Shown here: piece after piece, positions 963 to 16,739 of the stretch
Layout: the number at the start of each line of letters is the position of its first letter
Numbering within the stretch: the first letter of the stretch is position 1
Source: an uncultured Bacteroidales bacterium
Lineage (GTDB): Bacteria > Bacteroidota > Bacteroidia > Bacteroidales > Bacteroidaceae
DNA: 37,281 nt
Assembly (NCBI GenBank): GCA_902801485.1
Contig: CADCIP010000027.1
Span: 1 to 37,281, forward strand
Direction of reading: 5' to 3'
The notes under the pieces: model-generated
Told to the model about the DNA's origin: nothing
The model's database searches: none
Seen by the model: the letters and a program-made list of their open reading frames with translations, nothing else
Program-made: the position numbers and the translations under genes

Positions 963-1829
963 ATGTCAGAGAAGATTCACTTTACCAAGATGCACGGTGC
1001 AGGCAACGATTACATATACGTTGACACTACCTTATATAATATAAAGGACCCTGCCGCAGCTGCCATCGCCTGGAGCGACCGGCACAAGGGCATCGGATCA
1101 GACGGATTGGTGCTGATCGGGCGCAGCCCGCTTCCCGAGGCGGACTTTACCATGCGCATCTTTAATGCTGACGGTTCAGAGGCTATGATGTGTGGTAATG
1201 CCAGCAGGTGCATCGGCAAATACCTATATGAGAGGACTCACCCCTGGCCCCTCCCTTGTAAGGAGGGGGATGGTTACCAAGAGACGGTGATTCGCCTGCT
1301 TACGCTTTCAGGAATAAAATTGCTCTTCCTGCGCATTGTGAACGGCATCGTGGAAAGTGTGACGGTAGATATGGGCGAACCGGTTTTCGAGGACGAAAGG
1401 CTGTTTAACCCTGCATGTGATCCCCTCGCCCAAAGTGTTCCCCCTGCCCACGGGGCCGGGGCCCAATTTGTCTCCATGGGCAACCCCCACTATGTAATCT
1501 TTACCAATGATGTGGACGCAGTAGAGACGAAGGGATGTGAGTTAGAATTCCATGCCGCTTTTCCCGAACGCTGTAACATCGAATTTGCCGAAATGCGTCC
1601 TGACGGCATTCGGGTTCGCGTTTGGGAGCGCGGCAGCGGCATAACACAAGCCTGTGGAACAGGCGCCTGCGCTACGGCTGTGGCAGCTTGTAAGACGGGA
1701 CGCTCGGGTCGCAAAAACCGTATTATCATGGATGGCGGCGAGCTGGAGATTGAATGGAACGAGGCTGACAACCATGTGTATATGACGGGCCCGGCAGAGT
1801 TTGTGTTTGAGGGAGAGGTTGATTTTTAG
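963..1829 (+). CDS. dapF: Diaminopimelate epimerase
   Basis: Converts LL- to meso-diaminopimelate for lysine and peptidoglycan synthesis; cytosolic and cofactor-free. The two catalytic cysteines are visible: C77 in MMCGNASRC and C231 in the [12 protein letters not shown] motif. The substrate-binding signatures [11 protein letters not shown] (residues 9-19) and [11 protein letters not shown] are intact. The protein has 288 residues, against roughly 270 usual. The excess matches two in-frame palindromic elements: residues about 92-104 ([13 protein letters not shown]) and 154-167 ([14 protein letters not shown]). Both fall between conserved blocks and leave the catalytic motifs untouched, so the enzyme is probably active. 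dapL follows, giving two consecutive steps of the LL-DAP aminotransferase pathway. The 299-bp gap to dapL is filled with tandem repeats, so co-transcription is plausible but unproven. Confidence 0.95.
1237..1274 (+). repeat. In-frame palindromic element, forward copy, in dapF
   Basis: A diverged forward copy (CTCACCCCTGGCCCCTCCC...AAGGAGGGGGAT) reading [13 protein letters not shown]. Its codon register is shifted by one base relative to the other forward copies, yet the frame stays open. Confidence 0.75.
1422..1463 (-). repeat. In-frame palindromic element, reverse copy, in dapF
   Basis: A 42-base (14-codon) reverse-oriented copy reading [14 protein letters not shown]. Its reverse complement contains the ...GTGGGC(A/G)...GGGGGAACACTTTGGGCGAGGGG layout of the long 57-bp form. 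It pairs with the forward copy at 1237-1274. Confidence 0.75.
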
Positions 1830-2003
1830 AGTTTACAGTTTAGAGTTTAGAGTTTAGAGTCAGTTTAGAGAGTTTAGAGTTTAGAGTCAGTTTAATAAGT
1901 TTAAGAGTTTAATAGTTTAAGAGTTTAATAAGTTTAAGAGTCTGTTTATTTAGTTTAGAGTTTAGAGTTTAGAGTTTAGAGTCAGTGTTTGAAGTTTAGA
2001 GTA
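1827..2003. repeat. Degenerate tandem repeat between dapF and dapL
   Basis: About 25 imperfect copies of a 6-8 base unit (GTTTAGA, GTTTAAGA and variants) start at the dapF stop codon and fill most of the 299-bp gap. A short GCCG hairpin near 2030-2043 and a CTCTCTTAGGAGAGAG palindrome near 2079-2094 follow. The palindrome resembles the core of the intragenic elements. No gene is seen here. Confidence 0.8.
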
Positions 2004-2128
2004 GCAGGTTTGAAGTACTATTTTACTCCGCCAGTGGCGGCACTATTTATCAACTTTAAACTATCAACTCTCAACTTTCTCTCTTAGGAGAGAGGGCCGC
2101 TAACCGCTAACCGCAGAGAATAAAGAAT

Positions 2129-3325
2129 ATGAAAATAAACGAGCATTATATGGAGCTGTCGGGCAACTATCTGTTCGCAGATATTGCTAAGAAGGTGCAG
2201 GCCTTCAAGGAAGAGAACCCCGAAGCAAATGTAATAAGCCTTGGTATCGGTGACGTAACACAGCCGCTTTGTCCTGCTGTGGTGGAGGCCTTGCATAAGG
2301 CTGCCGACGAGATGGGACAGACGGCGACTTTCCGCGGCTACGGCCCCGAGCGGGGGTACGACTTCCTGCGTAATGCTATTGTCGAGAACGATTATCGTGC
2401 ACGTGGTATCGATATAGATGCCGAGGAGGTGTTCGTAAGTGACGGGGCCAAGAGCGATACAGGCAACTTTCAGGAACTGCTGAGTGATGAGTGCGTAGTA
2501 GCCGTTACAGATCCCGTCTATCCTGTCTATGTGGATTCTAACGTAATGGCCGGTCGTCGTATCGTGAAACTGCCCTGCACAGCAGAGAATAGTTTTGTAC
2601 CCGGTATTCCCGGGGAACGTGTGGATGTTGTGTATTTGTGCTATCCCAACAACCCGACAGGAACAACACTGACAAAGGATCAGTTGAAGAAATGGGTGGA
2701 TTATGCACTCCGGAACGATGTGCTTATCTTCTACGATGCTGCATACGAGGCATTCATCCAGAGTGAAAACGTTCCGCATAGCATCTACGAGATTCCTGAA
2801 GCCAGGCGGTGTGCCGTGGAGTTTCACAGCTTCTCCAAGACGGCAGGGTTTACAGGAGTCCGTTGCGGATACACGATTGTTCCCAAAACGTTGAACGTAC
2901 CCTTGAATCGGTTGTGGAGCCGCCGCCAGTGCACCAAGTTTAACGGCACCAGCTACTTGAGTCAACGTGCTGCCGAGGCTATCTATACGCCTGAGGGGAA
3001 GAAGCAGATACGGGCTACCATCGCATACTATATGGAGAATGCCCGTTTGATGCGTGAGACGTTGACCGGCATGGGCTTTACCGTTTATGGCGGCACCGAT
3101 GCGCCCTATCTGTGGGTGAAGACACCAAGCCTCACCCCCGCCCCCGCTCCAAAGGGCGAGGGGAGTAGTTGGAGATTCTTCGACTGGATGCTACACTCCG
3201 CTCACGTGGTTTGCACTCCCGGCGCAGGCTTCGGTCCCAGCGGAGAGGGGTACGTCAGACTGACTGCGTTCGGTACACATGAAGCAACGATGGAAGCACT
3301 CCAGCGTATAAAAAATAAATTGTAA
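2129..3325 (+). CDS. dapL: LL-diaminopimelate aminotransferase
   Basis: A PLP-dependent class I/II aminotransferase that makes LL-diaminopimelate directly from tetrahydrodipicolinate, bypassing the acylated DAP intermediates. Visible family blocks are [47 protein letters not shown], the PLP lysine K237 in [16 protein letters not shown], and [16 protein letters not shown] near the end. It has 398 residues, slightly shorter than the usual ~410, because loops near residues 145-155 and 255-265 are short. At 334-346 it gains one in-frame palindromic element, [13 protein letters not shown], between WVKTP and SWRFFDWML, where relatives have only a short turn. All active-site motifs are intact. It lies downstream of dapF and upstream of gltB. 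Confidence 0.95.
3128..3166 (+). repeat. In-frame palindromic element, forward 39-bp copy, in dapL
   Basis: Exactly 13 codons reading [13 protein letters not shown], in the standard register (AGC CTC ACC CCC ...). It is the only copy in dapL, placed in a surface turn between conserved blocks. Confidence 0.85.
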
Positions 3326-3366
3326 ATCGTAAATTGTCAAATTACTGAAGTTTCGGAAGTTTAAAT

Positions 3367-3490
3367 GGAAGTTAACTCGTTACGCTCGTGGGAGTTAAAA
3401 AGGACAACGGTTTTACACGTGCATAACTATCGTCCAGCCAGCTGCTGGCTTAACTTCCTGCGCGCAGCGCATAACTCCCAGTTTAACTTC
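3367..3490. repeat. Interleaved inverted repeats between dapL and gltB
   Basis: GGAAGTTAA (3367-3375) pairs with TTAACTTCC (3450-3458), and GGGAGTTA (3390-3397) with TAACTCCC (3472-3479), an interleaved a-b-a'-b' order. GTTTAACTTC (3481-3490) offers an alternative partner. Small near-palindromes (AGCCAGCTGCTGGCT, TGCGCGCA) lie inside. It looks like an intergenic palindromic repeat or a structured leader before gltB. Confidence 0.5.
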
Positions 3491-3526
3491 ATCTTATAAC
3501 TCCCGAAATTAAAATCAAATTATACA

Positions 3527-6500
3527 ATGAATCAGGGATTATACAACGAAGCTTACGAGCATGATGCTTGCGGCGTGGGAATGGTAGTGAACATCCACGG
3601 CGGAAAGAGTCATGAACTGGTGGACAATGCACTGAAGGTGCTGGAGAATATGGAGCACCGTGGTGCTGAGACACGCGACAAGACGGGTGACGGTGCTGGT
3701 ATTATGGTGCAGATTCCGCACGAGTTTATTCTGCTACAAGGCATACCCGTACCCGAAAAGGGCCGCTACGGAACAGGATTGGTGTTCCTTCCCAAAGACG
3801 AGAAGGCACAACAGGAGATTCTCTCTGTGATGATCGAGGAGATTGAACGCGAAGGACTGCAACTGATGCATATGCGCACGGTTCCCACCTGCCCGGATGT
3901 CTTAGGTGCTGCCGCACGTGAGGTGGAGCCGGAAATCAAACAGATTTTCGTAACCGCCCCCAACAGCCTTACCCCTAACCCCTCTCCCGTGGGCGAGGGG
4001 AACTTTGTGGGCGAGGGGAGCGCTCTTCTGCCTAGCAATACGTCAGAACTTGACCGTAAACTATATATTATAAGGAAGAGAATAGAGAACAGGGTGGAAG
4101 CACTAACAAAGTCTGAAACTCCCCTCTCCCCTTGGAGAGGGGCCGGGGGTGAGGCTTTCTATATCTGCTCTCTCTCCACAAAGAACATCATCTACAAGGG
4201 TATGCTCACCAGCGGGCAGCTGCGCCGCTACTTCCCGGACCTCTCCAATCCCTACTTTACCAGCGGACTGGCATTGGTACATTCACGTTTCTCGACCAAC
4301 ACGTTCCCCAAGTGGAAGCTGGCACAGCCCTTCCGCCTGTTGGCTCATAACGGCGAAATCAACACTATCCGCGGCAACCGAGGCTGGATGAAGGCACGCG
4401 AAAGTGTGCTGAGCAGCGAGGCATTAGGAGATATCAAGGACCTTCGTCCCATAGTTCAGGAAGGCATGAGCGACTCTGCCAGCTTGGACAACGTATTCGA
4501 GTTCCTGATGATGAGCGGGCTCTCGCTACCACAGGCGATGGCTATTTTGGTGCCGGAGAGTTTCAACGACAAGAACCCCATCTCTGAAGACCTGAAGGCG
4601 TTCTACGAGTATCATTCTATCCTGATGGAGCCGTGGGACGGTCCTGCTGCTCTGTTGTTCTCGGACGGTCGTTTTGCCGGCGGTATGCTCGACAGAAACG
4701 GTCTGCGCCCCAGTCGTTACACCATCACCAAGAACGGTATGATAGTTGTTGCCTCCGAGGTTGGCGTAATGGACTTCGAACCCGGTGATGTGGTCAGCAA
4801 GGGACGTCTGCAGCCCGGAAAGATTCTGCTCATAGATACCCAGGAAGGCAAGATATACTACGATGGCGAGATCAAGGAGCAGCTGGCCAAGGCTCACCCC
4901 TATCGCGAATGGCTGAGCACCAACCGTATCCAGCTGGAGAAGCTGAAGAGCGGTCGTCACGTAGAAAATTCTGTAGAGAACCTCGAACGCAAACTCGTAC
5001 AGTTCGGCTACGGACAGGAAGACATTGACAAAACCATCATCCCTATGGCAACAGCCGGTCAGGAGCCTGTGGCTGCAATGGGTAACGATACGCCGCTGGC
5101 TGTTATCAGCGACCGCCCCCAGATATTCTTCAACTATTTCCGTCAGCAGTTCGCGCAGGTTACCAACCCCGCCATCGACCCCATCCGAGAGGAACTGGTG
5201 ATGAGTCTGACAGAGTATATCGGTGCCGTGGGAACCAACATCCTGACACCCGATGCCAGCAACTGCAAGATGGTTCGCCTGCCACAACCTGTGTTGACGA
5301 ATACACAGTTGGATCTATTATGTAATATCCGATCTAGAGGTTTCAAGACCATCAAGCTGCCGATGACCAGCCCCCTGCCAACCTCCAGCCTCACCCCCGG
5401 CCCCTCTCCCGTGAGAGAGGGGAGCTTTGTGGGCGAGGGGGACAATTACTCCCAGGCCGGAGAAGCGTTGGGAATGGCCCTGGACAAGCTTTGCAAGGAT
5501 GCAGAAGAGGCAGTAGATAACGGCTATAACTACATTATACTAACTGACAAGATGGAACTCCTCCCCCAAGGGGGAGGTCGGGAGGGGGCTTTCTACATCC
5601 CCTCGTTGTTGGCCGTGAGCGCTGTTCACCATTATCTTATCGGTGTGGGCAAGCGTGTGCAGACAGCCCTGATTGTCGAAAGCGGCGAGATACGCGAGGT
5701 GATGCACGCCGCTCTGCTCTTAGGTTACGGTGCCAGTGCTATCTGTCCTTACATGACCTTTGCCGTGTTGGACGACCTGGTGAAGAAGCACAAGATTCAG
5801 GAGGATTATGCAACAGCCGAGGCTCATTATATTAAAGCCGTAGATAAGGGGCTGAAGAAGATTATGAGCAAGATGGGTATCAGCACCATCCGCAGTTATC
5901 GCGGTGCCAAGATATTCGAGAGCATCGGACTGAGCGAAGACCTCCTGCGCCGCTACTTCGGCACGGAGGTGAGCACCATTGGCGGTATCGGCCTGAAGGA
6001 AATTGCGAGGGATGCAATTCGCTTGCAGAAGAAGAGCCTCACCCCTAACCCCTCTCCCGTGGGCGAGGGGAACACTTTACTGCAGAACAACGGCCAGTTC
6101 TCTTGGCGCAAGGACGGCATCCTTCATGCATGGAATCCTGACACCATAGCTAATCTGCAGATAGCTACCCGATTGGGCTCATACAAGAAGTTCAAGGAGT
6201 GGTCTGCTATGGTGGACGAGAAGGAGAAGCCTATCTTTATCCGTGACTTCTTCAGCTTCAAGAAGGCTGCCAAGCCCACACCTATTGACGAGGTAGAGCC
6301 TGTAGAGAACATCGTTAAACACTTCGTAACAGGTGCCATGAGTTTCGGTGCCTTGAGTATTGAAGCCCACGAGGCTTTGGCTCTGGCGATGAATAAACTG
6401 GGCACACGAAGCAACACCGGTGAGGGCGGTGAGGATAATGCCCGCTATCACTCGGATGTGGACGGTGTTTCGCTCTCCAGCAAGACCAAACAGATTGCAT

Positions 6501-8278
6501 CAGGCCGTTTTGGTGTCACAGCCGAATACCTGGTGAATGCCGAGGAGATACAGATCAAGGTGGCACAGGGTGCGAAGCCCGGCGAGGGCGGTCAGCTTCC
6601 CGGTTTCAAGGTGAACGACATTATCGCCAAGACACGTAACGCCATCCCTGGCATCTCATTGATTTCACCTCCACCTCATCACGATATCTATTCTATCGAG
6701 GATTTGGCACAGCTTATCTTCGATCTGAAGAATATCAATCCCACAGCAGCCGTGAGCGTAAAGCTGGTTGCCGAGAGTGGTGTAGGAACCATTGCTGCCG
6801 GTGTAGCCAAGGCTAAGGCCGACCTGATTGTAATCAGCGGTGCCGAGGGCGGTACGGGTGCCAGTCCTGCCAGCAGTATGCGCTTTGCCGGTATCTCGCC
6901 AGAGATAGGTCTTGCCGAGACACAGCAGACGCTGGTGATGAACGGACTGCGTAATCAGGTCCGCCTGCAGACCGACGGTCAGCTGAAGACTGCCAAGGAT
7001 GTTATCATCATGGCGATGTTAGGTGCCGACGAGTTCTCGTTCGGTACGCTGCCCCTGATTGTTTTGGGTTGCGTAATGATGCGCAAGTGTAATACCAACA
7101 CCTGCCCCGTAGGTGTTGCCACGCAGGACGAACGGCTCAGAGCCCGTTTTATGGGTCGGGCTGAATATGTGGTGAACTTCTTCACTTTCCTGGCCGAGCA
7201 GGTTCGCGAATACCTGAGCGAAATCGGTGTGAAGAGTCTGAAGGAGATTATCGGTCATACAGAACTGATCGAGAGCCTCACCCCTAACCCCTCTCCCGTG
7301 GGCGAGGGGAACTTTACCGCTGGGAAGTGGCGCACCATCGACTTCGGTCGCCTGCTGTACAAACCCCAGACGGATAAGGTGCTCTACTGGGACCGTGGCG
7401 ACTATACTGGAGTGAACGGTAACCTACTCAACAAACAGATACTGGCAGACTTTGAGGAAATATTATCTTCTCCCCTCGCCTCCGGGAGAGGGGACGGGGG
7501 TGAGGCTTCGTACGCTATCAAGAACACAGACCGTGCAGCCTGCACCATGCTCTCAGGCGCTATTGCCCGGAAGTACGGCGAGAAGGGTTTGCCCGACAGT
7601 ACTATCAATATCAAGTTCAAGGGCTCGGCCGGTCAGTCCTTTGGTGCCTTTGCCGTTCGCGGTCTGAACCTGCGTCTGGAAGGCGAAACCAACGACTATT
7701 TCGGCAAGGGTCTTTCCGGTGGTCGCATCAGCATCCTTCCTCCCGCAAGAAGTGACATCAACTTCCATGCCGAGGACAACATCATTGCCGGTAACACAGG
7801 TTTATACGGAGCCACCAGCGGAGAACTGTATGTGAACGGCCAGGTAGGCGAGCGTTTTGCAGTCCGCAACTCTGGCGCTATCGCTGTTGTGGAGGGTGCC
7901 GGCGACCATTGTTGCGAGTACATGACAGGCGGTCGTGTCGTTGTCTTGGGTAAGACGGGACGCAACTTTGCTGCAGGTATGAGCGGTGGTGTAGCATACG
8001 TTTACGACCCCGACCACACCTTCGACTACTTCTGCAACATGGATATGGTGGAGATTAACTTGGTGGAGGAAGCTTCTCACCGCAAGGAACTGCTGGAGCT
8101 TATCCGTCAGCACTATCTCCACACAGGCTCGGCCCTGGCAGGCCGTATGCTGGACGACTGGAACCGCCACGTGGAGGACTTCATACAGGTTGTTCCCATC
8201 GAGTACAAGCGCGTCCTGCAGGAAGAACAGATGGCCCGTCTGCATGAGAAAATCGCAGATATCCAGAGAGACTACTGA
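3527..8278 (+). CDS. gltB: Glutamate synthase large subunit
   Basis: Transfers the glutamine amide to 2-oxoglutarate to form glutamate, working with GltD. After a 14-residue propeptide, C15 (HDACGVGM) is the N-terminal nucleophile of the class II amidotransferase domain (to about residue 450; LAHNGEINTIRGN is conserved). A central domain follows, then the FMN-binding synthase domain (about 880-1240; GAMSFGALSIEAHEAL, GGTGASP), the Fe-S cysteines in CVMMRKCNTNTCPVG, and the GxGxG C-terminal domain. The protein has 1583 residues; seven in-frame palindromic elements add about 101, so without them it is about 1482, the family's usual size. They sit at residues 147-165, 198-210, 621-639, 678-688, 837-849, 1250-1262 and 1315-1327, all in weakly conserved linkers. 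gltD follows after 144 bp. Confidence 0.96.
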   Translation: MNQGLYNEAYEHDACGVGMVVNIHGGKSHELVDNALKVLENMEHRGAETRDKTGDGAGIMVQIPHEFILLQGIPVPEKGRYGTGLVFLPKDEKAQQEILSVMIEEIEREGLQLMHMRTVPTCPDVLGAAAREVEPEIKQIFVTAPNSLTPNPSPVGEGNFVGEGSALLPSNTSELDRKLYIIRKRIENRVEALTKSETPLSPWRGAGGEAFYICSLSTKNIIYKGMLTSGQLRRYFPDLSNPYFTSGLALVHSRFSTNTFPKWKLAQPFRLLAHNGEINTIRGNRGWMKARESVLSSEALGDIKDLRPIVQEGMSDSASLDNVFEFLMMSGLSLPQAMAILVPESFNDKNPISEDLKAFYEYHSILMEPWDGPAALLFSDGRFAGGMLDRNGLRPSRYTITKNGMIVVASEVGVMDFEPGDVVSKGRLQPGKILLIDTQEGKIYYDGEIKEQLAKAHPYREWLSTNRIQLEKLKSGRHVENSVENLERKLVQFGYGQEDIDKTIIPMATAGQEPVAAMGNDTPLAVISDRPQIFFNYFRQQFAQVTNPAIDPIREELVMSLTEYIGAVGTNILTPDASNCKMVRLPQPVLTNTQLDLLCNIRSRGFKTIKLPMTSPLPTSSLTPGPSPVREGSFVGEGDNYSQAGEALGMALDKLCKDAEEAVDNGYNYIILTDKMELLPQGGGREGAFYIPSLLAVSAVHHYLIGVGKRVQTALIVESGEIREVMHAALLLGYGASAICPYMTFAVLDDLVKKHKIQEDYATAEAHYIKAVDKGLKKIMSKMGISTIRSYRGAKIFESIGLSEDLLRRYFGTEVSTIGGIGLKEIARDAIRLQKKSLTPNPSPVGEGNTLLQNNGQFSWRKDGILHAWNPDTIANLQIATRLGSYKKFKEWSAMVDEKEKPIFIRDFFSFKKAAKPTPIDEVEPVENIVKHFVTGAMSFGALSIEAHEALALAMNKLGTRSNTGEGGEDNARYHSDVDGVSLSSKTKQIASGRFGVTAEYLVNAEEIQIKVAQGAKPGEGGQLPGFKVNDIIAKTRNAIPGISLISPPPHHDIYSIEDLAQLIFDLKNINPTAAVSVKLVAESGVGTIAAGVAKAKADLIVISGAEGGTGASPASSMRFAGISPEIGLAETQQTLVMNGLRNQVRLQTDGQLKTAKDVIIMAMLGADEFSFGTLPLIVLGCVMMRKCNTNTCPVGVATQDERLRARFMGRAEYVVNFFTFLAEQVREYLSEIGVKSLKEIIGHTELIESLTPNPSPVGEGNFTAGKWRTIDFGRLLYKPQTDKVLYWDRGDYTGVNGNLLNKQILADFEEILSSPLASGRGDGGEASYAIKNTDRAACTMLSGAIARKYGEKGLPDSTINIKFKGSAGQSFGAFAVRGLNLRLEGETNDYFGKGLSGGRISILPPARSDINFHAEDNIIAGNTGLYGATSGELYVNGQVGERFAVRNSGAIAVVEGAGDHCCEYMTGGRVVVLGKTGRNFAAGMSGGVAYVYDPDHTFDYFCNMDMVEINLVEEASHRKELLELIRQHYLHTGSALAGRMLDDWNRHVEDFIQVVPIEYKRVLQEEQMARLHEKIADIQRDY
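3965..4021 (+). repeat. In-frame palindromic element, forward 57-bp copy, gltB no. 1
   Basis: Nineteen codons reading SLTPNPSPVGEGNFVGEGS: the 39-bp core plus an 18-bp extension that repeats the GTGGGCGAGGGG half. It pairs with the reverse copy at 4118-4156. Confidence 0.9.
4118..4156 (-). repeat. In-frame palindromic element, reverse 39-bp copy, gltB no. 2
   Basis: Thirteen codons reading TPLSPWRGAGGEA on the gene strand. The native segment KLYIIRKRIENRVEAL lies between it and copy 1, so the pair is two separate insertions rather than one mobile unit. Confidence 0.88.
5387..5443 (+). repeat. In-frame palindromic element, forward 57-bp copy, gltB no. 3
   Basis: Nineteen codons reading SLTPGPSPVREGSFVGEGD, at the junction after the LPMTSPLPTS stretch. 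It carries the same 18-bp extension as copy 1. Confidence 0.9.
5558..5590 (-). repeat. In-frame palindromic element, reverse short copy, gltB no. 4
   Basis: A variant of about 33 bases reading LLPQGGGREGA, with the CTCC...CCCAAGGGGGAGG palindrome and a GGAGGGGGCT end. It sits just before the conserved IPSLLAVSAVHHYLI block. Confidence 0.75.
6035..6073 (+). repeat. In-frame palindromic element, forward 39-bp copy, gltB no. 5
   Basis: Thirteen codons reading SLTPNPSPVGEGN, the consensus peptide. It is the only gltB copy without a reverse partner nearby. Confidence 0.92.
7274..7312 (+). repeat. In-frame palindromic element, forward 39-bp copy, gltB no. 6
   Basis: Thirteen codons, identical in peptide to copy 5 (SLTPNPSPVGEGN). 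The DNA of copies 5 and 6 is the same over the whole 39 bases. Confidence 0.92.
7469..7507 (-). repeat. In-frame palindromic element, reverse 39-bp copy, gltB no. 7
   Basis: Thirteen codons reading SPLASGRGDGGEA on the gene strand, located before the conserved INTDRAACTML-like block (IKNTDRAACTML). It pairs with copy 6, 156 bases upstream. Confidence 0.88.
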
Positions 8279-8280
8279 TA

Positions 8281-8422
8281 TTTACAATTTGACGATTTAC
8301 GAATTACGATTTATATACTATTTCAAGGATTTAGTTATTTAAGCCGCTGAGAGTAAATCATCAAATCATAAAATCGAAAAATAAATAGTAAATTGTATAT
8401 TTGTAAATAGTAAATCATAGAG
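8281..8422. repeat. AT-rich degenerate repeat between gltB and gltD
   Basis: A 144-bp gap made of variants of ATTTACGAATT, AAATCATAAAATCG and GTAAATAGTAAATC. The part at 8287-8313 is close to an inverted copy of the sequence at the dapL stop (3321-3342), so gltB is flanked by related inverted words. No promoter of the TAnnTTTG form is evident. Confidence 0.5.
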
Positions 8423-9877
8423 ATGGGAAATCCAAAAGCTTTTTTAGAGATACATCGCAAGGAGGCCGGTTATCGCCCCGTTAACGATCGTATTCATGAC
8501 TTTGGCGAGGTGGAACAGACGCTGAATACCAAAGACAGACAGGAACAGGCCTCACGTTGTATGGATTGTGGCGTGCCCTTCTGCCACTGGGCTTGTCCCT
8601 TGGGCAATAAAGACCCCGAATGGAACGATGCCCTGTATCATGGCGAATGGGAAACGGCATATAAGTTGCTCAAGAAGACCAATCCTTTCCCTGAGTTTAC
8701 GGGCCGTATCTGTCCCGCGCTCTGCGAGAAGGCTTGTGTCCTGTATCATACCACAGGCGAGGCCGTTACCAATCGCGAGAACGAATGCGCCATTGCCGAG
8801 CGTGCTTTCCTGGAGGGCTATGTGACCATAGAGAACCCCCAACGCAACGGCAAGAAGGTGGCAGTTATCGGTGCCGGACCTGCCGGACTGGCTGCTGCCA
8901 ACGAGCTGAACCTGATGGGTTACAGCGTAACGGTCTTCGAGAAGAACGAGGCTGCCGGCGGTCTCCTCCGCTACGGCATCCCCAACTTCAAACTCAACAA
9001 GGCCGTCATCGATCGCCGCATCCAAGTAATGGAGCAGGAAGGAGTCGAGTTTAAGTACAATACCAGCCTCACCCCTAACCCCTCCCCCGTAAGGGAGGGG
9101 AACACTTTGGGGGAGGGGAACTCAAATATATGCGATTCCTTATGTATTCAGGATAGAGATGGAAATGTTACTCCCCTCGCCCACGGGAGAGGGGACGGGG
9201 GTGAGGCTTTTGATGCCATCGTCCTCGCCACAGGCACTCCCACAGCACGCGACCTCAAGGCTCCTGGCCGTGAACTGAAAGGCGTGCATCTGGCCCTTGA
9301 GCTGCTCTCGCAGCAAAACCGTGTGCTGGCCGGCATGACTTTCTCCGACGAGGAGCGCATTACCGCCAAGGGCAAGGATGTCCTCGTTATCGGTGGCGGC
9401 GACACGGGCTCCGACTGCATCGGAACGGCTCATCGTCAGGGCTGCAAGAGCGTTACGCAGATAGAGATTATGCCTAAGCCTCCCGTTGGACACAACCCCA
9501 ACACCCCTTGGCCCAACTGGCCCGTCATCTTGAAGACTACCAGCAGCCACGAAGAGGGTTGTACCCGACGCTGGAACATCAACACCCTGGAGTTTCTGGG
9601 TAAGGACGGAAAGGTTACTGGCGTAAAGGTTCAGCCTATTGACTGGAAGCCCAATCCGGAGGGCGGCAGACCCCTTATGATTGAAGCCGGTGAGCCCGAG
9701 GTCATCAAGGCCGAGCTGGTATTGCTGGCAATGGGATTCCTGAAGCCAGAGCATCCCGAATACCCGGAAAATGTGTTTGTCTGCGGCGATGCCGCCAATG
9801 GCGCCTCCCTCGTTGTTCGTGCCATCGCCAGCGGCAAACAAACCGCCCAAAAGGTGGATGCTTTCCTGAAACGATAA
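8423..9877 (+). CDS. gltD: Glutamate synthase small subunit
   Basis: The FAD- and Fe-S-containing subunit that passes electrons from NAD(P)H to GltB. The N-terminal Fe-S region shows CMDCGVPFCHWACPLGN and CPALCEKAC. The FAD-binding GAGPAGLAAANELN lies near residue 150, a second dinucleotide fold GGGDTGSDC near 325, and the closing VFVCGDAANGASLVVRAI is the usual FAD contact. It has 484 residues, against about 450 usual; two in-frame elements at residues 215-233 and 250-262 account for the excess. They flank a short native-looking segment NICDSLCIQDRDGNV just before FDAIVLATG. It lies downstream of gltB, and a strong hairpin terminator follows. Confidence 0.95.
   Translation: MGNPKAFLEIHRKEAGYRPVNDRIHDFGEVEQTLNTKDRQEQASRCMDCGVPFCHWACPLGNKDPEWNDALYHGEWETAYKLLKKTNPFPEFTGRICPALCEKACVLYHTTGEAVTNRENECAIAERAFLEGYVTIENPQRNGKKVAVIGAGPAGLAAANELNLMGYSVTVFEKNEAAGGLLRYGIPNFKLNKAVIDRRIQVMEQEGVEFKYNTSLTPNPSPVREGNTLGEGNSNICDSLCIQDRDGNVTPLAHGRGDGGEAFDAIVLATGTPTARDLKAPGRELKGVHLALELLSQQNRVLAGMTFSDEERITAKGKDVLVIGGGDTGSDCIGTAHRQGCKSVTQIEIMPKPPVGHNPNTPWPNWPVILKTTSSHEEGCTRRWNINTLEFLGKDGKVTGVKVQPIDWKPNPEGGRPLMIEAGEPEVIKAELVLLAMGFLKPEHPEYPENVFVCGDAANGASLVVRAIASGKQTAQKVDAFLKR
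9065..9121 (+). repeat. In-frame palindromic element, forward 57-bp copy, in gltD
   Basis: Nineteen codons reading SLTPNPSPVREGNTLGEGN, with the 18-bp extension. It pairs with the reverse copy 48 bases downstream, forming a long inverted repeat inside the gene. Confidence 0.9.
9170..9208 (-). repeat. In-frame palindromic element, reverse 39-bp copy, in gltD
   Basis: Thirteen codons reading TPLAHGRGDGGEA on the gene strand, joined directly to the conserved FDAIVLATG block. Confidence 0.9.
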
Positions 9878-9960: not shown

Positions 9961-11970
9961 TTATCTTATGATGTCTAATGCCTTTTTCAGTATCACATCT
10001 TCTGTAGAGAAGAAAACTTCCTCCTGGGTCAAGGGCACTTCTATATCGGGCAACAAACCTCTGCCATAAGGGAAGCGCTCTGAGACATCAGTTGCTGTAA
10101 TGGCCTTAACAAGTGGCAGATGATATTCTATCCTGGTGTTGGGAAGGAACAGACGGGCAAACTTCAAGGCTGTCATGTAATGATAAGCCGTAGCAGTTTC
10201 ACGTCCGATACTTACGGCACGCTTTGCACGAACCAGATGAGCTGGGAAGTCGGTTGCGGCACTGACAGAGCCCTCGTTGATAAGAACATATAGCTTTCCT
10301 TTGTAGATAGCATCGTTCTTCTTAGGTTTTGCTGAGGTCTTTGTCTCAGAAAATGCATCTCTGTTATAGAATCCTTCTTTCCCCTCTATCTTCACGAAGT
10401 CTTCAAAGGGCTTCATTTCTTTGCTCCAGTTATAGCAATGGCTAAAGCTGCGGTATGTGCTGTTGCTGTTCACCATCTGGCAGTTGAATGTTACAGGCTT
10501 CTCAAACAGGAACATATCCAGGAGCCGTCCCTCGCAATTGGCATCTCCCCCATAGTTGTCACGTACATCTATAATAAGGTTAGGTACTTTGGCGTGAGCC
10601 TTTAGACTGTCTGCTATGTTGTCCATCTGTACTTCATTCAACTGAAAGTGGCCCAACGTCAACAGAGCCGTTTTGTCATTCAGCATCTTAAAGCTCCAAT
10701 CCTCTTTTCTGTTTTGGTTTTTGTGAACGTAGTAGGCGATGGGGCCAGTTGGTTGTGGTGTGTAGCGTTTGACCTGATCGCGCTTCAGGTAAGGCGCATC
10801 CACACTGGTGCCGTCGGTAAAGGTCAGGTGTGCTCCTGTACCTGTGAATGTGTCATCGTATTGTCCCCACCAGTTTGCCAGCAACTGTATAGCAACTGTT
10901 GATTCTACTTTTGCATCGAAGAGTTCTGTTTTCTGACGATGACGAGCCGCCTGCTCCTTGGCCGGGATGCCATTGACGGTAGCAACCTCCTTGCCGATAT
11001 GTTCCTCATAACCTGGCTGCACCTGACGCACAAACATACGGTCACCCAATGTGCAGAGCATGATAGCCGGGTACTGAACGTTGCTGCTGGGATTAGGGAA
11101 TGGGTTGGAAGATTGCCTCCATGCGTGGGAATCATGAAAGAAACGGGCCGTGAAGGCATCGCCCACTATGTCGTGAAGCGTAGTAAAGCTGACCGAATCG
11201 GCATCCAGTTTTGCCTTACAATTGCGTACGAACTCGGCTTCAAGTTCTGGCGTGATGATGTCACGATAAGAAGGAATACATTCGCGAAGGCTCTCCATAA
11301 AGAAATCGAAGTCCTCGTTGGCCTGCTCTCGGGTAAGCTTCTCCGGAGGCGTGAACGATTCGCCCTCCTTGAATGTAGTCTGCAATCCGAAGGGGGTCAT
11401 AGGGTCTATGGGTTTGCCGTCCTTGCTGACAGAAATGGAAATGTGCGGCTCGCCTACTTTCTCGAAAACGTAGCTGACCGTACCCAGTACCGTTCCTGCT
11501 TTTATGCTCTGTCCGGATTTGAATGCGGCATTGCCGCGAAGTCCGGAGAAGTGTATCTCCCTGCCATCCGCCAGTTTCAGGCCAATGTCGCCATTGATAT
11601 ACTTCTTAGGGTCACGGACATCAGGGTCTTCCTCCATTTTCTTACGCATAGCATCAAAGGTCCTGGCATCATCATAACCATAAGTCCGGCTTTGGTACAG
11701 GCCGGAACGATAGCCAAGCATCTGCCACGTGATTACTCCGTCAGCCGGAGCAATAACTTCCGTGCCTTCCTTGGCTCCGATGATAAGGTTGCAATAGTTG
11801 GCCTCATGGTCCAGCGGGTCTTGTGGACGAAGCAGAATGTTAGCACCAGCCTTTTGTCCCTCAATGGGCCAAAGCCAGACGTTTTCAGATTGTGCTCTGC
11901 CTTGGCAGATGGGGCACAGTAGTAGCAGGATGAGGGTGGCTGCTCTCATCCAAAAGGTGAGATGTTTCAT
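9961..11970 (-). CDS. Exported S41 peptidase with degenerate M23-like domain (cassette A)
   Basis: A 669-residue exported protein with a signal peptide (residues 1 to about 27, ending GRAQ). Residues about 32-200 resemble an M23/LytM fold (WLWPIEGQKAG...GTEVIAPADGVITW...SGQSIKAGTVLGTV...PHISISV). Most zinc ligands are missing: the first His/Asp region reads YCNLIIGAKEGT, and the usual HxH is reduced to H176-I-S. The C-terminal half is an S41 (tail-specific protease) domain with FFHDSHAW, LIIDVRDNYGGDAN and the serine motif NEGSVSAAT (S568/S570). It is the last gene of a sigma/membrane protein/peptidase cassette, 19 bp after its partner, and is paralogous to the product of 13336-15495. Inferred role: a cell-envelope protease that may act on the membrane partner. 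The substrate is unknown. Confidence 0.8.
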   Translation of the reverse strand: MKHLTFWMRAATLILLLLCPICQGRAQSENVWLWPIEGQKAGANILLRPQDPLDHEANYCNLIIGAKEGTEVIAPADGVITWQMLGYRSGLYQSRTYGYDDARTFDAMRKKMEEDPDVRDPKKYINGDIGLKLADGREIHFSGLRGNAAFKSGQSIKAGTVLGTVSYVFEKVGEPHISISVSKDGKPIDPMTPFGLQTTFKEGESFTPPEKLTREQANEDFDFFMESLRECIPSYRDIITPELEAEFVRNCKAKLDADSVSFTTLHDIVGDAFTARFFHDSHAWRQSSNPFPNPSSNVQYPAIMLCTLGDRMFVRQVQPGYEEHIGKEVATVNGIPAKEQAARHRQKTELFDAKVESTVAIQLLANWWGQYDDTFTGTGAHLTFTDGTSVDAPYLKRDQVKRYTPQPTGPIAYYVHKNQNRKEDWSFKMLNDKTALLTLGHFQLNEVQMDNIADSLKAHAKVPNLIIDVRDNYGGDANCEGRLLDMFLFEKPVTFNCQMVNSNSTYRSFSHCYNWSKEMKPFEDFVKIEGKEGFYNRDAFSETKTSAKPKKNDAIYKGKLYVLINEGSVSAATDFPAHLVRAKRAVSIGRETATAYHYMTALKFARLFLPNTRIEYHLPLVKAITATDVSERFPYGRGLLPDIEVPLTQEEVFFSTEDVILKKALDIIR

Positions 11971-11989
11971 AAATAAATTGAATTAAGTG

Positions 11990-12754
11990 TTACTTTTGCC
12001 GTGAAGTCTTGTTTAATCTAAAGTTAATAGGCATGTTAAAGTAGCTGCGAACAATCTTGCCTCGATCGTTCTTTGCAGGATTCCACTTTGGCATCTGCTT
12101 TATAACACGCTCAGCCTCGATAAATAACAAGTCTCTGTTCTGTCCAACCTTTAGATTGTCTTTGTTGTCAGGATAGGCGGCATTGTAGTCATCCACTTGC
12201 TTCTGCGTTAGTTTGATGCCAGGTCCACGCACCTTGCGAATATTAGTGATTCTGCCGTCTTTCTCCACAACAAAGTTTACTATGACTCTACCTTGAATTT
12301 CAAAGAATTCACAGGGGCGTGGATAGCTGATATGAGCTGCAATAAACTTATAACATTGCTCCCAACCATCAGGGTAAGAGGCGTCGACTGTTACAATGTT
12401 ATAAATAGAGTCTGACTCTGCTGTAGTTTCCTGCTTTGGCATAACTTTTTGATACGCCGCAAAGGAAACGCCAGTAATGAGCAGCACGATGATGAATGAG
12501 GCGGCAATCTTCATCCAGCTGGAGCGTTGCTTCTGCATCTTGCGCCTTTGATTGAAACGTTTCCATGCTGCATCAACGTTAGTAAGATTGTTGGCATGTG
12601 TATGACGGCTACTGCGTTTGGCTTCCACCATCAGGCGATAAGCCTCGCGCGTCTCCTCATCATGGTTGATGATGTCGCGTATTTCCTGCTCGGTATATGT
12701 CTCAGGGTTATCGAGCATTTCCAGAAGCTGCTGGATAGTCTTTTCCTCTTTCAT
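11990..12754 (-). CDS. Single-pass anti-sigma-type protein with TonB C-terminal domain (cassette A)
   Basis: A 254-residue protein. The cytoplasmic part (1-80) contains MLDNPETYTEQEIRDIINHD and ETREAYRLMVEAKR, strongly shared with the paralog at 15549-16238; its position after an ECF sigma gene suggests sigma binding. One transmembrane helix lies at about 82-100 (IAASFIIVLLITGVSFAA). The periplasmic part (about 128-247) looks like a TonB C-terminal domain: GRVIVNFVVEKDGRITNIRK and, near the end, MPKWNPAKNDRGKIVRSYFN then MPINFRL. The start codon overlaps the 3' end of the sigma gene by 47 bp, implying translational coupling. No zinc-binding anti-sigma motif is visible. The anti-sigma role is inferred from position and topology; the TonB-like domain rests on motif recognition. 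Confidence 0.75.
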   Translation of the reverse strand: MKEEKTIQQLLEMLDNPETYTEQEIRDIINHDEETREAYRLMVEAKRSSRHTHANNLTNVDAAWKRFNQRRKMQKQRSSWMKIAASFIIVLLITGVSFAAYQKVMPKQETTAESDSIYNIVTVDASYPDGWEQCYKFIAAHISYPRPCEFFEIQGRVIVNFVVEKDGRITNIRKVRGPGIKLTQKQVDDYNAAYPDNKDNLKVGQNRDLLFIEAERVIKQMPKWNPAKNDRGKIVRSYFNMPINFRLNKTSRQK

Positions 12755-13232
12755 AATTCCCTTGTTTAAAGTGGTTCTTAATTCTCTGAATGCTTTGTGT
12801 GAGATACTTGTAGGTAGTGTTAGGATTCAGGTTAAGCCTACGGGCAATCTCTGCGATGGTCAGGTCTTCGTCGAAGCGGAGACGGAAGATGCTGTGATGC
12901 GGCTCCTCCAACTGCTCATCCACATAGGCTGCAATATCCTCCAGTTGTTCCATATTAACGGTCTGCTGGTCAGTTTCAGTCTCCACTGGCAACAGGTTCT
13001 TTACCCTCTGTTGCAGTTGCATCTGTCGGATTCTGTTCAGACAGGCATTTCTGACGGCAGTCAGCAGATAACTGTCGTTTTGGGGAAGAATATCGCTGTC
13101 AGCCAGTTTTAGGAAGATGTCCTGCACCACATCCTCTGCTTCGCCGCCGTCTCCCAGCAGTACGCTGGCCAGATGAATCATCTTGCTGTAGTTCTGGCGG
13201 AAAAGTTCCTCAAGTTTTCTTTGTTCAAGCAT
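12708..13232 (-). CDS. ECF-type RNA polymerase sigma factor (cassette A)
   Basis: A sigma-70 family ECF factor of about 174 residues from the chosen ATG. Region 2 is visible as YSKMIHLASVLLGDGGEAEDVVQDIFLKL plus the DNA-contacting SYLLTAVRNACLNRIRQ. Region 4 is HSIFRLRFDEDLTIAEIARRLNLNPNTTYKYL. The ATG at 13232 (MLEQRKLEELFRQ) is preferred because it aligns without gaps with the start of the paralog at 16739 and follows an A-rich leader. In-frame alternatives are ATG 13256 and GTG 13271. It overlaps the following membrane-protein gene by 47 bp. A conserved block at 13284-13317, shared with the other cassette, lies upstream and suggests autoregulation. Confidence 0.88.
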   Translation of the reverse strand: MLEQRKLEELFRQNYSKMIHLASVLLGDGGEAEDVVQDIFLKLADSDILPQNDSYLLTAVRNACLNRIRQMQLQQRVKNLLPVETETDQQTVNMEQLEDIAAYVDEQLEEPHHSIFRLRFDEDLTIAEIARRLNLNPNTTYKYLTQSIQRIKNHFKQGNYERGKDYPAASGNAR

Positions 13233-13283
13233 ATCTTTTTTTTTGTTCTTGTGCATCCCGTTCAGGGACACTTCTACCTATAA

Positions 13284-13335: not shown

Positions 13336-15495
13336 TCACCTTTTCCTTGTATAATAATAAAGTAACAAGATAAGCAAGAGGCAGATGAAAGCAATTGCCA
13401 TTAGGAGCGATGGATGGAATCTCCACCATTTAGCCCTGACAGCTGTGGTGGGGATTTCTATATATGTGCCGTCAGCAATGAGTTGGAGGGTGCGGTCCAG
13501 AATGTAATCACCATCGTAGTGGAACTCCTCCTCGCTGAGAGGGATGTTACAGTCGGGTATCACACCACGTCGGGCAGGCAGGCGGTCGTTAGTGGTCTCA
13601 TCAAAGACTATGCGAACCATGGGAATCGAAGCTGTGAACTGACTGTTGGCAAGCTGGATGTTGGCAAACTTGATGGCAGTCTCGCAGTGGTATGCGCTCT
13701 TGGTTTCCCTGCCCACAATATAACCACGATAATTGCGTTTGATGGTTCCTGCCAGGAAAGCGGAAGCTGAAGCGGAGTGACTGTCTATTAGAACGTAAAG
13801 GCGACCGTTATAGCCAAGGGAATCGACAGATGGGCTATCGTTATCTTCTTCGTTAGGCATCTGGTAAAGTCCCTTCCGTCCTTCAACGGGTTTGTAATCG
13901 CTAAAGATTGTATCGCCAGCAATCCAGTTTAAGGTGGGACTGCTGAAAGTGGCAGCATTGACTTTCAGGTAACCTTTATGCGGACAGTCGGGTGTTCGTC
14001 CCATCAGGGCGCGAGTGATACGTGCCATTACATCACCATGCCCGCCATAATTGTTGCGTACGTCGAAAATAAGGTTGGGCACCTTATTGCGTTCTGCAGC
14101 ATGGATGGCTTTTACAATGCTGTCGCAATCCACCTGACTGAGTTCGAAGGTGCTAAGGCCAATGTAAAGGACGCTGTCGTTCAACTGCCGGATGCCAATG
14201 GGACTGTCCTTATAGCGGTTGATATCGTTGCGACGAAACCACTTCTTTCTGTCAGCATCGCTGCCCCGGAAATAATCTGTCAAGGGAAGTTCTACCCGTT
14301 CGCCGTCCTCAAATTCATAAACAGTGGCCTTTTTCGCATTCTGGTCTCCCTTCTTGAAGGAATAGACGATTTTTCCCCCGTAAAAGAGAACCTCATCTGC
14401 CACAGAAGTCACGCCGGCATCGTAGAGCGCCAAGCCACGTCGGGCTTTATTCCGTAGTTCGCTGACAGGCTTCCCGTCTATGCGTGCTACGCGTCTGCCC
14501 ACATAATTAGAATGGATTCCATCAGCGGCAAGCAATACCACACAGGCATAATTAGACGAGTCGCCTTCTGCTACATGCCCAACCAAGAGGGGCGAATAAT
14601 AATACTCCAGCCCTTGCTTCTTGTCCTCAGGCTTATCGGGCACGGGGCAGCGAATATCGAGGTGCGAATCGTGGATGACTTGGTTATAATCACATATGAT
14701 GTTGGCAAAATCCTTAAGCGCAATGCCTTCTGCAGGAATGCGCTTCAGTTGCTTACTGACAAAACTGTCGTATTCCTGTTCGGTCATGAAATCTTCAAGA
14801 GAAGGATAAATCTCCTTTATGCTATTGGTCAACTGTTTGTAGTCGGCCACCGCCTCGTCGTGTGTCAGATGGAATTTGGTGGGCTGTGGCTCACACCTGC
14901 GAAAGGTAGAACGCAGACCGAAGGGTGTCATGGGGTCACCCCCATCCGGATCGTTTGAAATGCTCAGACGGATACTTGGCTTCTGGATAACATGGTAGCT
15001 ATAGCCCATGGTGCCAAGCACATCGCCACGCTTCAGGCATGTGCCTGTGGGGATAGCTTTGTCGTGTCGCAAGCCTCCAATCCATAGTTTTTTGTTTCCT
15101 ATCTTAAGTCCAATCATAATAGAAAGACAGCGAATGTCCCATCCTTTGTTACGGAATTCTGCTTGATATTCTGCAATCACCTTGTCGTATGGCTTATCGT
15201 GAAAGCCAAAAGTCGATGCTGTATATAGTGAAAAACTGTAATCGTAACTATAGAATTCCACCACAGCATCATCTGGACAGATAATCTCCGTCCCTTCGGG
15301 AGCGGTAATAAAGAGGTTTCCAAAGTTCAGTTCATCCCCAATCTTGTCTTGCGGACGATAGAGGATGCCTTGCCCCGCCTTCTGCCCCTTGACGGGCCAG
15401 AGCCAGTTACTTTTATACTGTGCTTTACCAACGAACGGGCATAATAGTAGCAATATGAAGGTGGCGACCTTCATCGGAAGAGAAGGATGTTTCAT
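13336..15495 (-). CDS. S41 peptidase with degenerate M23-like domain and C-terminal membrane anchor (cassette B)
   Basis: A 719-residue paralog of the product of 9961-11970, with the same opening (LLLLCP...QYKSNWLWPVKGQKAGQGILYRPQDK). After the signal peptide (1 to about 25) comes an M23-like region (about 30-200) in which every expected zinc ligand is gone: LNFGNLFITAPEGT at the first site, and KPSIRLSI where active enzymes have HxH. The S41 domain contains IHDSHLDIR, LIFDVRNNYGGHGDV and the serine motif SHSASASAF (S574/S576/S578). Unlike its sibling it ends in a transmembrane helix (about 690-715) and a basic TRKR tail, so it is anchored at its C-terminus. It is preceded by its own sigma and membrane-protein genes. 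Function inferred: membrane-tethered envelope protease, perhaps part of a signalling cascade. Confidence 0.8.
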   Translation of the reverse strand: MKHPSLPMKVATFILLLLCPFVGKAQYKSNWLWPVKGQKAGQGILYRPQDKIGDELNFGNLFITAPEGTEIICPDDAVVEFYSYDYSFSLYTASTFGFHDKPYDKVIAEYQAEFRNKGWDIRCLSIMIGLKIGNKKLWIGGLRHDKAIPTGTCLKRGDVLGTMGYSYHVIQKPSIRLSISNDPDGGDPMTPFGLRSTFRRCEPQPTKFHLTHDEAVADYKQLTNSIKEIYPSLEDFMTEQEYDSFVSKQLKRIPAEGIALKDFANIICDYNQVIHDSHLDIRCPVPDKPEDKKQGLEYYYSPLLVGHVAEGDSSNYACVVLLAADGIHSNYVGRRVARIDGKPVSELRNKARRGLALYDAGVTSVADEVLFYGGKIVYSFKKGDQNAKKATVYEFEDGERVELPLTDYFRGSDADRKKWFRRNDINRYKDSPIGIRQLNDSVLYIGLSTFELSQVDCDSIVKAIHAAERNKVPNLIFDVRNNYGGHGDVMARITRALMGRTPDCPHKGYLKVNAATFSSPTLNWIAGDTIFSDYKPVEGRKGLYQMPNEEDNDSPSVDSLGYNGRLYVLIDSHSASASAFLAGTIKRNYRGYIVGRETKSAYHCETAIKFANIQLANSQFTASIPMVRIVFDETTNDRLPARRGVIPDCNIPLSEEEFHYDGDYILDRTLQLIADGTYIEIPTTAVRAKWWRFHPSLLMAIAFICLLLILLLYYYTRKR

Positions 15496-15548
15496 AAGTT
15501 TATGGTGTTAATTAATAAAGGTAATTTCCTGTGATTTCACTTGTATTC

Positions 15549-16238: not shown

Positions 16239-16250
16239 AACTTCGGTATT

Positions 16251-16739
16251 TTAAATGGTGAAATGTTTATGGATTTCATCGATAGATTGACTGAGATACT
16301 TGAAAACAGTCTTGAGGTTCATGCCGAGTTGGTTGGCTATGTCTTTCAGCTTCATGTCATCCTCAAAGCGAAGCCGAAAGATTGTGAGGTGCGGTTCTTG
16401 AAGATGGTTCTCGGCATAGTCGCAAATGGCATCAATAGTTTCCATCCGTTGTTCAATGTGCTGCCAATCAGAATCAATATCCATAGAATAGAGTTCGCGG
16501 AACTGGTTGGTTATGGACTTCTTCCTGATGCGGTTAATACAGCCATTACGTACGGCTGTCATCAAGTAGGCTCTCACTTTGTCATCTGCAGGAAGAATGT
16601 CGCTTTGCATGAGTCGCACGAAGATATCCTGAACGATGTCTTCAGCTTCGGAATAGTCGTACATGAGCGTTCTGGCCAAGCGAATCATCTCGCTGTAGTG
16701 CAGGCAAAAGAGTCTGTGAAGTATCGTCTTGTCAATCAT
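16251..16739 (-). CDS. ECF-type RNA polymerase sigma factor (cassette B)
   Basis: A 162-residue sigma-70 family ECF factor. Region 2 shows YSEMIRLARTLMYDYSEAED, IVQDIFVRLM and VRAYLMTAVRNGCINRIRKK; region 4 shows LTIFRLRFEDDMKLKDIANQ and LGMNLKTVFKYLSQSIDEI. It is colinear with the sigma factor of cassette A, with the same DILP linker between helices of region 2. The start at 16739 follows the candidate promoter block by about 24 bases, so the leader is very short. It heads the cassette B operon and is divergent from glnN. No PAS, SnoaL or other extra C-terminal domain is present. Confidence 0.88.
   Translation of the reverse strand: MIDKTILHRLFCLHYSEMIRLARTLMYDYSEAEDIVQDIFVRLMQSDILPADDKVRAYLMTAVRNGCINRIRKKSITNQFRELYSMDIDSDWQHIEQRMETIDAICDYAENHLQEPHLTIFRLRFEDDMKLKDIANQLGMNLKTVFKYLSQSIDEIHKHFTI

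Follow-up and report, generated by a model that had tools for sequence, protein, structure and literature searches.

Palindromic Elements in Four Genes of the Window

The window analyzed here, a 37,281-nt stretch of contig CADCIP010000027.1 from assembly GCA_902801485.1, contains the four genes dapF, dapL, gltB, and gltD, and all four carry copies of a short GC-rich palindromic element within their open reading frames (ORFs). The initial annotation of this DNA had counted twelve copies and had stated that each keeps the frame open, and both statements hold. A 39-column weight matrix seeded with window copies recovered ten of them (starts at 1234+, 3128+, 3965+, 4118-, 5387+, 6035+, 7274+, 7469-, 9065+, and 9170-), around all of which the reading frame is intact, and two further diverged palindromes identified by eye (1416–1465 and 5555–5596) lie inside the same open ORFs. 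Nine of the matrix copies score between 52.5 and 60.6, values that are partly a product of construction because the window copies themselves served as seeds; the dapF copy, which had no seed role, scores 22.6, and the top score across five shuffled windows is 8.0.

An alignment of 23 copies from the genome to which the window belongs (hereafter, the own genome) revealed the anatomy of the element: a head, AGCCTCACCCC, is followed by three variable bases and an imperfect GC-rich stem, CCCCTCTCC..GGGCGAGGGG, and the element ends in AAC or AGT. Head and stem positions are invariant in this alignment, and the element is thus a short imperfect palindrome with one asymmetric end, to which an 18-bp repeat of the 3' half is appended in some copies. 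The proposal that complete forms are exactly 39 or 57 bp long fails at the genome level, where many copies have a shorter loop and are 37 or 38 bp long. In RNA folding, the copy at 9065 forms a clear hairpin (-17.7 kcal/mol, z -2.43) and the copy at 6035 favors a different pairing (z -0.83). An Rfam search of the window at gathering scores returned no matches.

The copies occupy positions that recur in relatives, which we refer to as slots and designate by residue. In dapF, an element with a diverged head lies at 1234..1272 (+) in a sense slot near residue 89, a slot and orientation common to ten mapped loci including the window, and a strongly diverged one lies at 1416..1465 (-) in an antisense slot where the sister locus L133 has a different element in a block of equal length. 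The dapL element at 3128..3166 (+), identified by the matrix and by locus mapping, has no partner that we could find. The gltB copies, likewise assigned by matrix and mapping except where noted, are located at 3965..4021 (+; slot 145, sense, with the 18-bp repeat of the 3' half), 4118..4156 (-; slot 172, its antisense partner), 5387..5443 (+; slot 580, sense, again with the 18-bp repeat), 5555..5596 (-; antisense slot 622, a related but distinct GC palindrome recognized by eye at a slot that holds recognizable elements in nine loci), 6035..6073 (+; slot 768, sense), 7274..7312 (+; slot 1177, sense), and 7469..7507 (-; slot 1226, the antisense partner). Finally, gltD has an element with a repeat of the 3' half at 9065..9121 (+; slot 213, sense) and its antisense partner at 9170..9208 (-; slot 225), both assigned by matrix and mapping and both absent in L133.

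Occurrence of the Copies in Relatives

Two explanations that the initial annotation had itself raised, assembly error and ancestral sequence, were examined in relatives. In the independent sheep-rumen assembly L133, segments corresponding to the window are 89.6–97.2% identical to it (96.7% for the segment holding gltB); the window gltB aligns to that of L133 without indels in its coding part, and the gltB copies are common to both. Elements are also present at the same slots in named isolates, among them P. communis E15-14 (L143, a complete genome) and X. brevis ATCC 19188 (L157). Since the gltB copies recur in an independent assembly and copies are found in cultured isolates as well, they are not an assembly artefact. 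The gltB genes of the window and L133 differ by 139 synonymous differences versus 22 in residue-changing codons.

The region of the first gltB slot pair measures only 31 residues in 47 of the 76 sequences that match the pattern used for this region (29 of 105 sequences were unmatched), and these empty slots are scattered over the gltB tree, whereas element-like inserts enlarge the region to approximately 41 to 69 residues. To judge from this distribution, the insert is not ancestral protein sequence. The excesses of about 101, 32, and 27 residues given earlier for GltB, GltD, and DapF are somewhat off: GltB has 1583 aa versus 1496 in the element-free reference L141, GltD 484 aa versus 448–450 (L141 and L133), and DapF 288 aa versus 266–270 (L194 and L134).

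Dispersal in the Genome, the Genus, and the Phylum

The genome-wide count that the initial annotation had proposed was made with a covariance model built from the 23 aligned copies. At a cut-off of E<=0.001, it found 76 copies in the own genome, a 3.6-Mb draft. Of these, 74 could be placed: 42 sit within ORFs of 200 aa or more, 31 of them in sense and 11 in antisense orientation, another 9 are found at the ends of ORFs, and the remaining 23 have no long ORF around them; this count is free of the gltB-centered sampling bias that affects genic counts from the 110 loci used for mapping below. Pfam models were run on 29 of the 30 ORFs with internal copies, with gltB left out, and at 1e-5 a family was assigned to 26 of the 29, in one case only below the curated cut-off. 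The hosts identified in this way include AsnB, a CarA/CarB fusion ORF with two copies, LeuRS, HerA, an altronate dehydratase (UxaA-like), members of GH2, GH88, GH97, and GH127, a sigma-54 activator (NtrC-like), and a sugar transporter.

Beyond the own genome, at least 78 of the 101 genomes of the genus, own included, have a match (up to 66 candidates scored per genome), with 0 to 64 copies found per genome as lower bounds; the 76 copies of the own genome come from the more sensitive search described above. Matches were found in at least 34 of 296 genomes of the phylum (up to 22 candidates scored per genome). One of these, G266, an assembly of 4 contigs from another genus of the class, has 17 matches among 22 scored candidates, with heads-outward pairs among them. 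A phage origin was considered and rejected, as an exact 23-base version is present in only 10 viral-contig stretches.

Slots, Orientation, and Pairing

Mapping of the element to 110 loci yielded 140 matrix hits in 36 loci, 101 of them in dapF, dapL, gltB, and gltD. Each slot has a fixed orientation. Along gltB, sense slots 145, 580, 768, and 1177 alternate with antisense slots 172, 622, 845, and 1226, and the other slots are 213 (sense) and 225 (antisense) in gltD, 89 (sense) and 155 (antisense) in dapF, and 332 (sense) in dapL. The orientation of the slot is kept by 98 of the 99 elements assigned to these 13 slots, the exception being slot 172 of L189, where the element is in sense orientation. 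The 98 include an antisense element of L064 (residue 1185) that the assignment rule lumped with slot 1226, although it adjoins slot 1177, where it follows a decayed sense insert.

Orientation is mixed in both gltB and gltD, with antisense copies starting 105–195 bp after the start of the sense copies that they follow. More generally, 36 of the 39 pairs found within 300 bp in 80 loci have their heads outward, two are on the same strand, and one has its heads inward, and pairs read from the covariance-model hits in the own genome comprise seven heads-outward, one same-strand, and no inward cases. Gaps within pairs range from about 21 to 199 bp. In gltB, sense and antisense copies are separated by native enzyme sequence, LYxxRKRIENR in the case of slots 145 and 172, and the pair was therefore not inserted there as one REPIN, that is, as one mobile doublet of repetitive extragenic palindromic (REP) sequences. 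Codon phase is mostly constant as well: with few exceptions, sense copies read SLTPxPSPxGEGS or xTHPQPLPxxEGS, and antisense copies read TPLxxGRGxGGEA or TPLPHREGxGxG. To judge from alignments, the slots presumably lie in surface loops.

Hairpin Sequence Follows the Genome

Comparison of the part after the head among 88 elements from 29 genomes revealed that hairpin sequence tracks the genome rather than the site. Mean identity is highest between pair partners (0.880; n=31), followed by elements at other sites of the same genome (0.839; n=123), elements at the same site in other genomes (0.785; n=362), and unrelated pairs (0.772; n=3312). The excess of within-genome over same-site identity is 0.062, compared with a mean of -0.004 and a maximum of 0.034 in 500 permutations. 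Within the window, the copy at 6035 is identical to the copy at 7274 over 39 bp, as the initial annotation had noted, and the identical 39-bp sequence occurs at two own-genome sites outside the window (C4:104576 and C8:104031). Recent spread, which had been read from this identity, does not follow from it: the identity fits the general likeness of copies within a genome.

Turnover of Slots

To determine how slots change, the own genome (G000) was compared with its near-identical sister genome G396, in which matches to both flanks located 46 of the 77 G000 copies scanned. None of these 46 copies, three of which have ambiguous placements, showed a clean gain or loss of 39 bp, and the same comparison of empty and filled sites offered no usable case for detecting a target duplication. 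The idea that the element has been inserted again and again thus finds no example here. Thirty-one copies are concordant and 15 were flagged. The flagged set comprises eight copies at seven sites that are replaced or rewritten (both gltD copies forming one site), one diverged variant (L119), one case of diverged surroundings (L128), two shared elements with a neighboring indel, and the three copies whose placement is ambiguous. With G396 as the starting genome, 44 of its 85 copies were placed, and the flagged cases that were aligned are dapF, L292, L298, L301, L303, L304, L289, and L317; L317 only scored below the threshold, and L296, L310, and L316 lie outside the aligned set.

The changed slots are whole-block differences between near-identical flanks, and the replacing block often consists of other repeats. 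In CarA, a palindrome stands against an AATGTTC-type AT-rich array, a difference of 30 bp; in a first histidine kinase, the counterpart of an element pair is a pair of CTCCCCCAAAGGGGGAG palindromes (18 bp); the antisense slot of dapF has been rewritten at constant length (0 bp); and in gltD, the counterpart of the pair is a short segment that contains two small hairpins (102 bp). A second histidine kinase has one slot in which the hairpin core alone differs (3 bp) and another in which the sister has an intact element and the window's genome a 108-bp-longer block. All six of these coding differences are multiples of three. Similar changes affect intergenic copies, with differences of 2, 9, and 59 bp, of which the largest is located next to the start of a gene. 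Mismatches near the block edges of eight cases amount to 30 of 400 positions within 25 bp and 19 of 380 at 25–50 bp, compared with 2.4–3.8% beyond, with edges set by a rule of our own that put them at wrong positions in dapF, CarA, and the second kinase; the raised mismatch within 50 bp fits the import of short tracts. In concordant slots, the element seemed to evolve more slowly (25 of 1068 vs. 457 of 11155 mismatches at 28 of 31 sites); this observation was discarded, since both copies had to match the matrix and the figure is therefore biased.

As a separate observation on gltD, the loops of L144:13227 and L163:13224 encode the repeat-like peptides KVKSEER...LFTLSSSLRN and MDNGQWTIDN...NSQFSILNSQF; read from the peptides only, they resemble facing inverted AT-rich repeats that replace the GC palindrome pair.

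Transfer between Species

The gltB genes of L165 and L143 are 84.8% identical overall, yet their slot-622 modules are identical at 75 of 75 nt and the stretches adjoining these on the left at 107 of 108 nt. The relatives of L165 (L161, L164, and L174; about 86% overall) have no recognized element there and match at 12–13 of 30 alignable nt. To judge from these alignments, this is one clear interspecies transfer of an element-bearing gltB tract. A further pair, L182 and L157, is 92.8% identical in the slot 145–172 module versus 83.2% overall, with relatives of L182 (L194 and L175) at 56–57% in that module. Because no clean insertion was seen and one slot's element arrived within a recombined gltB tract, recent spread of the element is unsupported. 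Short identical tracts occur throughout gltB: among 5445 gene pairs with 90% identity or less, 38 runs reach a length of 80 nt or more.

A Proposed Life Cycle

Taken together, these observations (elements that are dispersed and in frame, one orientation per slot, pairs with their heads outward, sequences specific to the genome, replacement of whole blocks, and one tract transferred between species) make it somewhat probable, in our judgment, that these are REP-like elements that became fixed in tolerant loops, spread as alleles of their host genes, and are kept alike within genomes. The life cycle would begin with a nonautonomous hairpin element with the asymmetric head AGCCTCACCCC, dispersed through the genomes of the genus and first inserted by a single-strand process like that of REP-associated tyrosine transposases (RAYTs). 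Proteins would accept in-frame copies at certain positions, presumably in surface loops, with a near-neutral effect on the protein. Once present, a slot would behave as a polymorphic allele of the host gene whose position, orientation, and mostly also codon phase persist, and the repeat inside it would turn over by block replacement. Element-bearing tracts would cross species by ordinary short-tract homologous recombination, and within a genome, either conversion or renewed seeding from shared source copies would maintain the likeness of the copies.

Several points weigh against this account. No mobiliser of the element is proven, conversion as the within-genome homogenizer is an inference and was not observed directly, and recombination alone does not explain the genome-specific sequence. 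The orientation, phase, and pair counts include related genomes and thus do not represent independent events. The six commonest gltB slots each change presence 5 to 10 times on the gltB tree, with gain and loss indistinguishable, and decayed inserts that the matrix does not score are present in several tips, so these are changes in recognizable presence. Pair partners do not share a hairpin type beyond that of their genome, as 236 of 2000 permutations reach the observed value (20 pairs in 8 genomes). The slots are not recombination hotspots either, as 12 of the 38 long shared runs center near a slot and slots make up 31.6% of the gene; with tracts found all over gltB and not concentrated at slots, the element seems to ride ordinary recombination and not to cause it.

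The Mobiliser and Alternative Explanations

The own genome has two Y1_Tnp (IS200-like) matches, one of which belongs to a RAYT-like HUH family of about 350–550 aa (seed G000:C3:53861) that occurs in several places per genome and is present in 61 of the 101 genomes. Members of this family were found in 41 of the 45 genomes that have 10 or more element copies versus 20 of the 56 that have fewer (Fisher p=1e-8), and element and family match counts, in which split hits of one gene are included, correlate with a Spearman coefficient of 0.60. A PF01797 match is also commoner in high-copy genomes (25/45 vs. 16/56; p=0.008). As to the earlier remark that no transposase is known for the element, this RAYT-like family co-occurs with high copy number, but its genes are not flanked by the element.

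These associations, together with the REP-like anatomy and the REPIN-like pairing of the element, are what would be expected if a RAYT-like Y1/HUH enzyme were still transposing it, each in-frame copy being a separate insertion and the regularities of slot, orientation, and phase arising from target preference and selection for tolerated peptides. We consider this unlikely. The element is present in the fetched flanks (about 1.5 kb) of only 2 of 20 HUH-family loci, which is about chance by an estimate from copy density, and of 1 of 29 loci from the PF01797 search; the fetched loci, which cover the own-genome Y1 genes in part, thus do not show a cognate RAYT gene flanked by the element. A tree-paired test of the HUH association in 29 genomes was not significant, with 2.5 for and 0.5 against of 4 pairs. 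No GT[AG]G is present at either foot of 74 copies (CGTC is present at the feet of 4 and 2 of them), nine genomes have the enzyme with no copies found, and four have at least 10 copies with no enzyme found. The lack of a clean insertion among the 46 placed copies also speaks against repeated transposition.

Several of the Y1/HUH transposase-like genes themselves contain in-frame tandem repeats, in variable number, between the HUH and tyrosine motifs (L028:712-1974 on the minus strand, with a unit of 13 codons; G000:C3:53861-55123; L244; L247; L250; and L252). The 39-bp internal repeat of the Y1 gene was considered as the source of the element and rejected: a 21-base piece of it has two own-genome matches, both in that gene, and the repeat is unlike the element in sequence.

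Selection on an mRNA or DNA hairpin, under which facing pairs would be kept for the long stem that they form around a short stretch of gene and which would tune, for example, mRNA stability or translation, appears very improbable. The region of the gltD pair does fold strongly (-74.4 kcal/mol, z -4.66) compared with a single-copy region (z -0.98), and the gltD loops of some relatives seem, from their peptides only, to hold inverted AT-rich repeats; however, any facing inverted repeat folds so, the heads-outward order of 36 of the 39 pairs is unneeded for a hairpin, single copies occur, and many relatives are without a recognizable element at these slots. Misassembly, pseudogenes, or ancestral protein sequence, for which it may be said that the window comes from a draft genome of 85 contigs and 85% completeness, has already been refuted by the recurrence of the gltB copies in L133, the elements of named isolates, the 139 synonymous versus 22 residue-changing-codon differences, and the 31-residue empty slot that recurs over the gltB tree.

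Comparison with Known Systems

Like REPs in general, the element is a short imperfect palindrome with one asymmetric end and many dispersed copies. GTAG- and CGTC-tagged intragenic REPs are palindromic repeats of 20–40 bp, some of them in frame inside genes, and different REPs are described at about the same recB site in two Xanthomonas species (PMC3733652). The element described here differs from them in having no GT[AG]G foot (0 of 74) and CGTC in only 4 and 2 of 74 copies; in being inside long ORFs in 42 of 74 placed own-genome copies, whereas the REPs of that article are mostly intergenic; and in the block turnover and interspecies tract transfer documented here. REPIN doublets are inverted in 93% of 430 cases (PMC3116915), to which the 36 of 39 pairs found here are alike; unlike REPINs, these pairs have gaps of about 21–199 bp with no fixed unit, and the spacer in gltB is native, so that doublet and spacer do not form one mobile unit.

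A likeness to the Rickettsia palindromic elements had been pointed out in the initial annotation and is upheld, since in both cases palindromes are dispersed in frame in unrelated metabolic genes (PMC10969869); the tag differs, and the Rickettsia elements are about 150 bp long versus 37–39 bp here, the likeness being one of behavior. Two of them, RPE-4 and RPE-6, are counted among CGTC repeats (PMC3733652). TnpAREP subclass 2.4 is abundant in Bacteroidetes and has in-frame repeats between its HuH and Y motifs (PMC6006769), a feature that the Y1 genes found here share; the REPs of this subclass carry GT[AG]G and flank the gene, and the element described here does neither. Inverted repeats of up to 284 bp embedded in protein-coding genes are also known from the mitochondria of Nematomorpha (PMC6649704); these coding palindromes are mitochondrial, and no relationship to the element is implied. 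In the available parts of the open-licence PMC literature, we found no description of the element or of slot exchange in Prevotella. The element is thus REP/REPIN-like and behaves like Rickettsia palindromic elements, without the GTAG/CGTC tag or a flanking RAYT gene. In-frame REPs and Rickettsia palindromic elements are established precedents, and this element is a variant of that kind.

Other Features of the Window

An intergenic AT-rich array of AGTTTAGAG-type units follows dapF (1823-2090), after which come roughly inverted units, AACTTTAAACTATCAACTCTCAAC. Similar AT-rich repeats are present in frame in the carA/carB ORF of L130 and L268. A 12-bp tandem repeat (522-588) encodes an Asn/Gly/Glu-rich tail that ends ORF 73-627, which is HU-like by eye. 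Two similar modules (11912-13271 and 15437-16739), each consisting, by eye, of a sigma factor-like ORF, a short membrane protein, and a large peptidase-like ORF, share stretches of 71–75% identity, which suggests a local duplication. At about 13416, near the 3' end of a minus-strand ORF of 719 aa, a 40-bp segment is absent in L133; its length is not a multiple of three, and the C-termini of the two proteins should therefore differ.

Implications

A broader reading, which we put forward tentatively and regard as possible though doubtful, is that rumen Prevotella keep a set of fixed, oriented slots in core enzyme genes that is shared among species. In-frame repeat cassettes of interchangeable kinds, namely this palindrome, other GC palindromes, and AT-rich repeat arrays, would occupy these slots and pass between species through recombination. 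If this were so, the loops of proteins would offer selfish or domesticated repeats a lasting habitat that is shared horizontally, and the rule that sense precedes antisense would stem from a genuine constraint on the way in which paired cassettes enter a gene.

The element itself is widespread in its genus, with matches in at least 78 of 101 genomes, and is seated in enzymes of nitrogen assimilation and in other core enzymes, and many species have empty and filled alleles, which makes its life cycle traceable. It thus becomes testable how a hairpin repeat lives in coding sequence, turns over without breaking the frame, and crosses species with its host gene. Differences in loop length among such proteins should also be read with caution, as they may represent repeat cassettes and not function.

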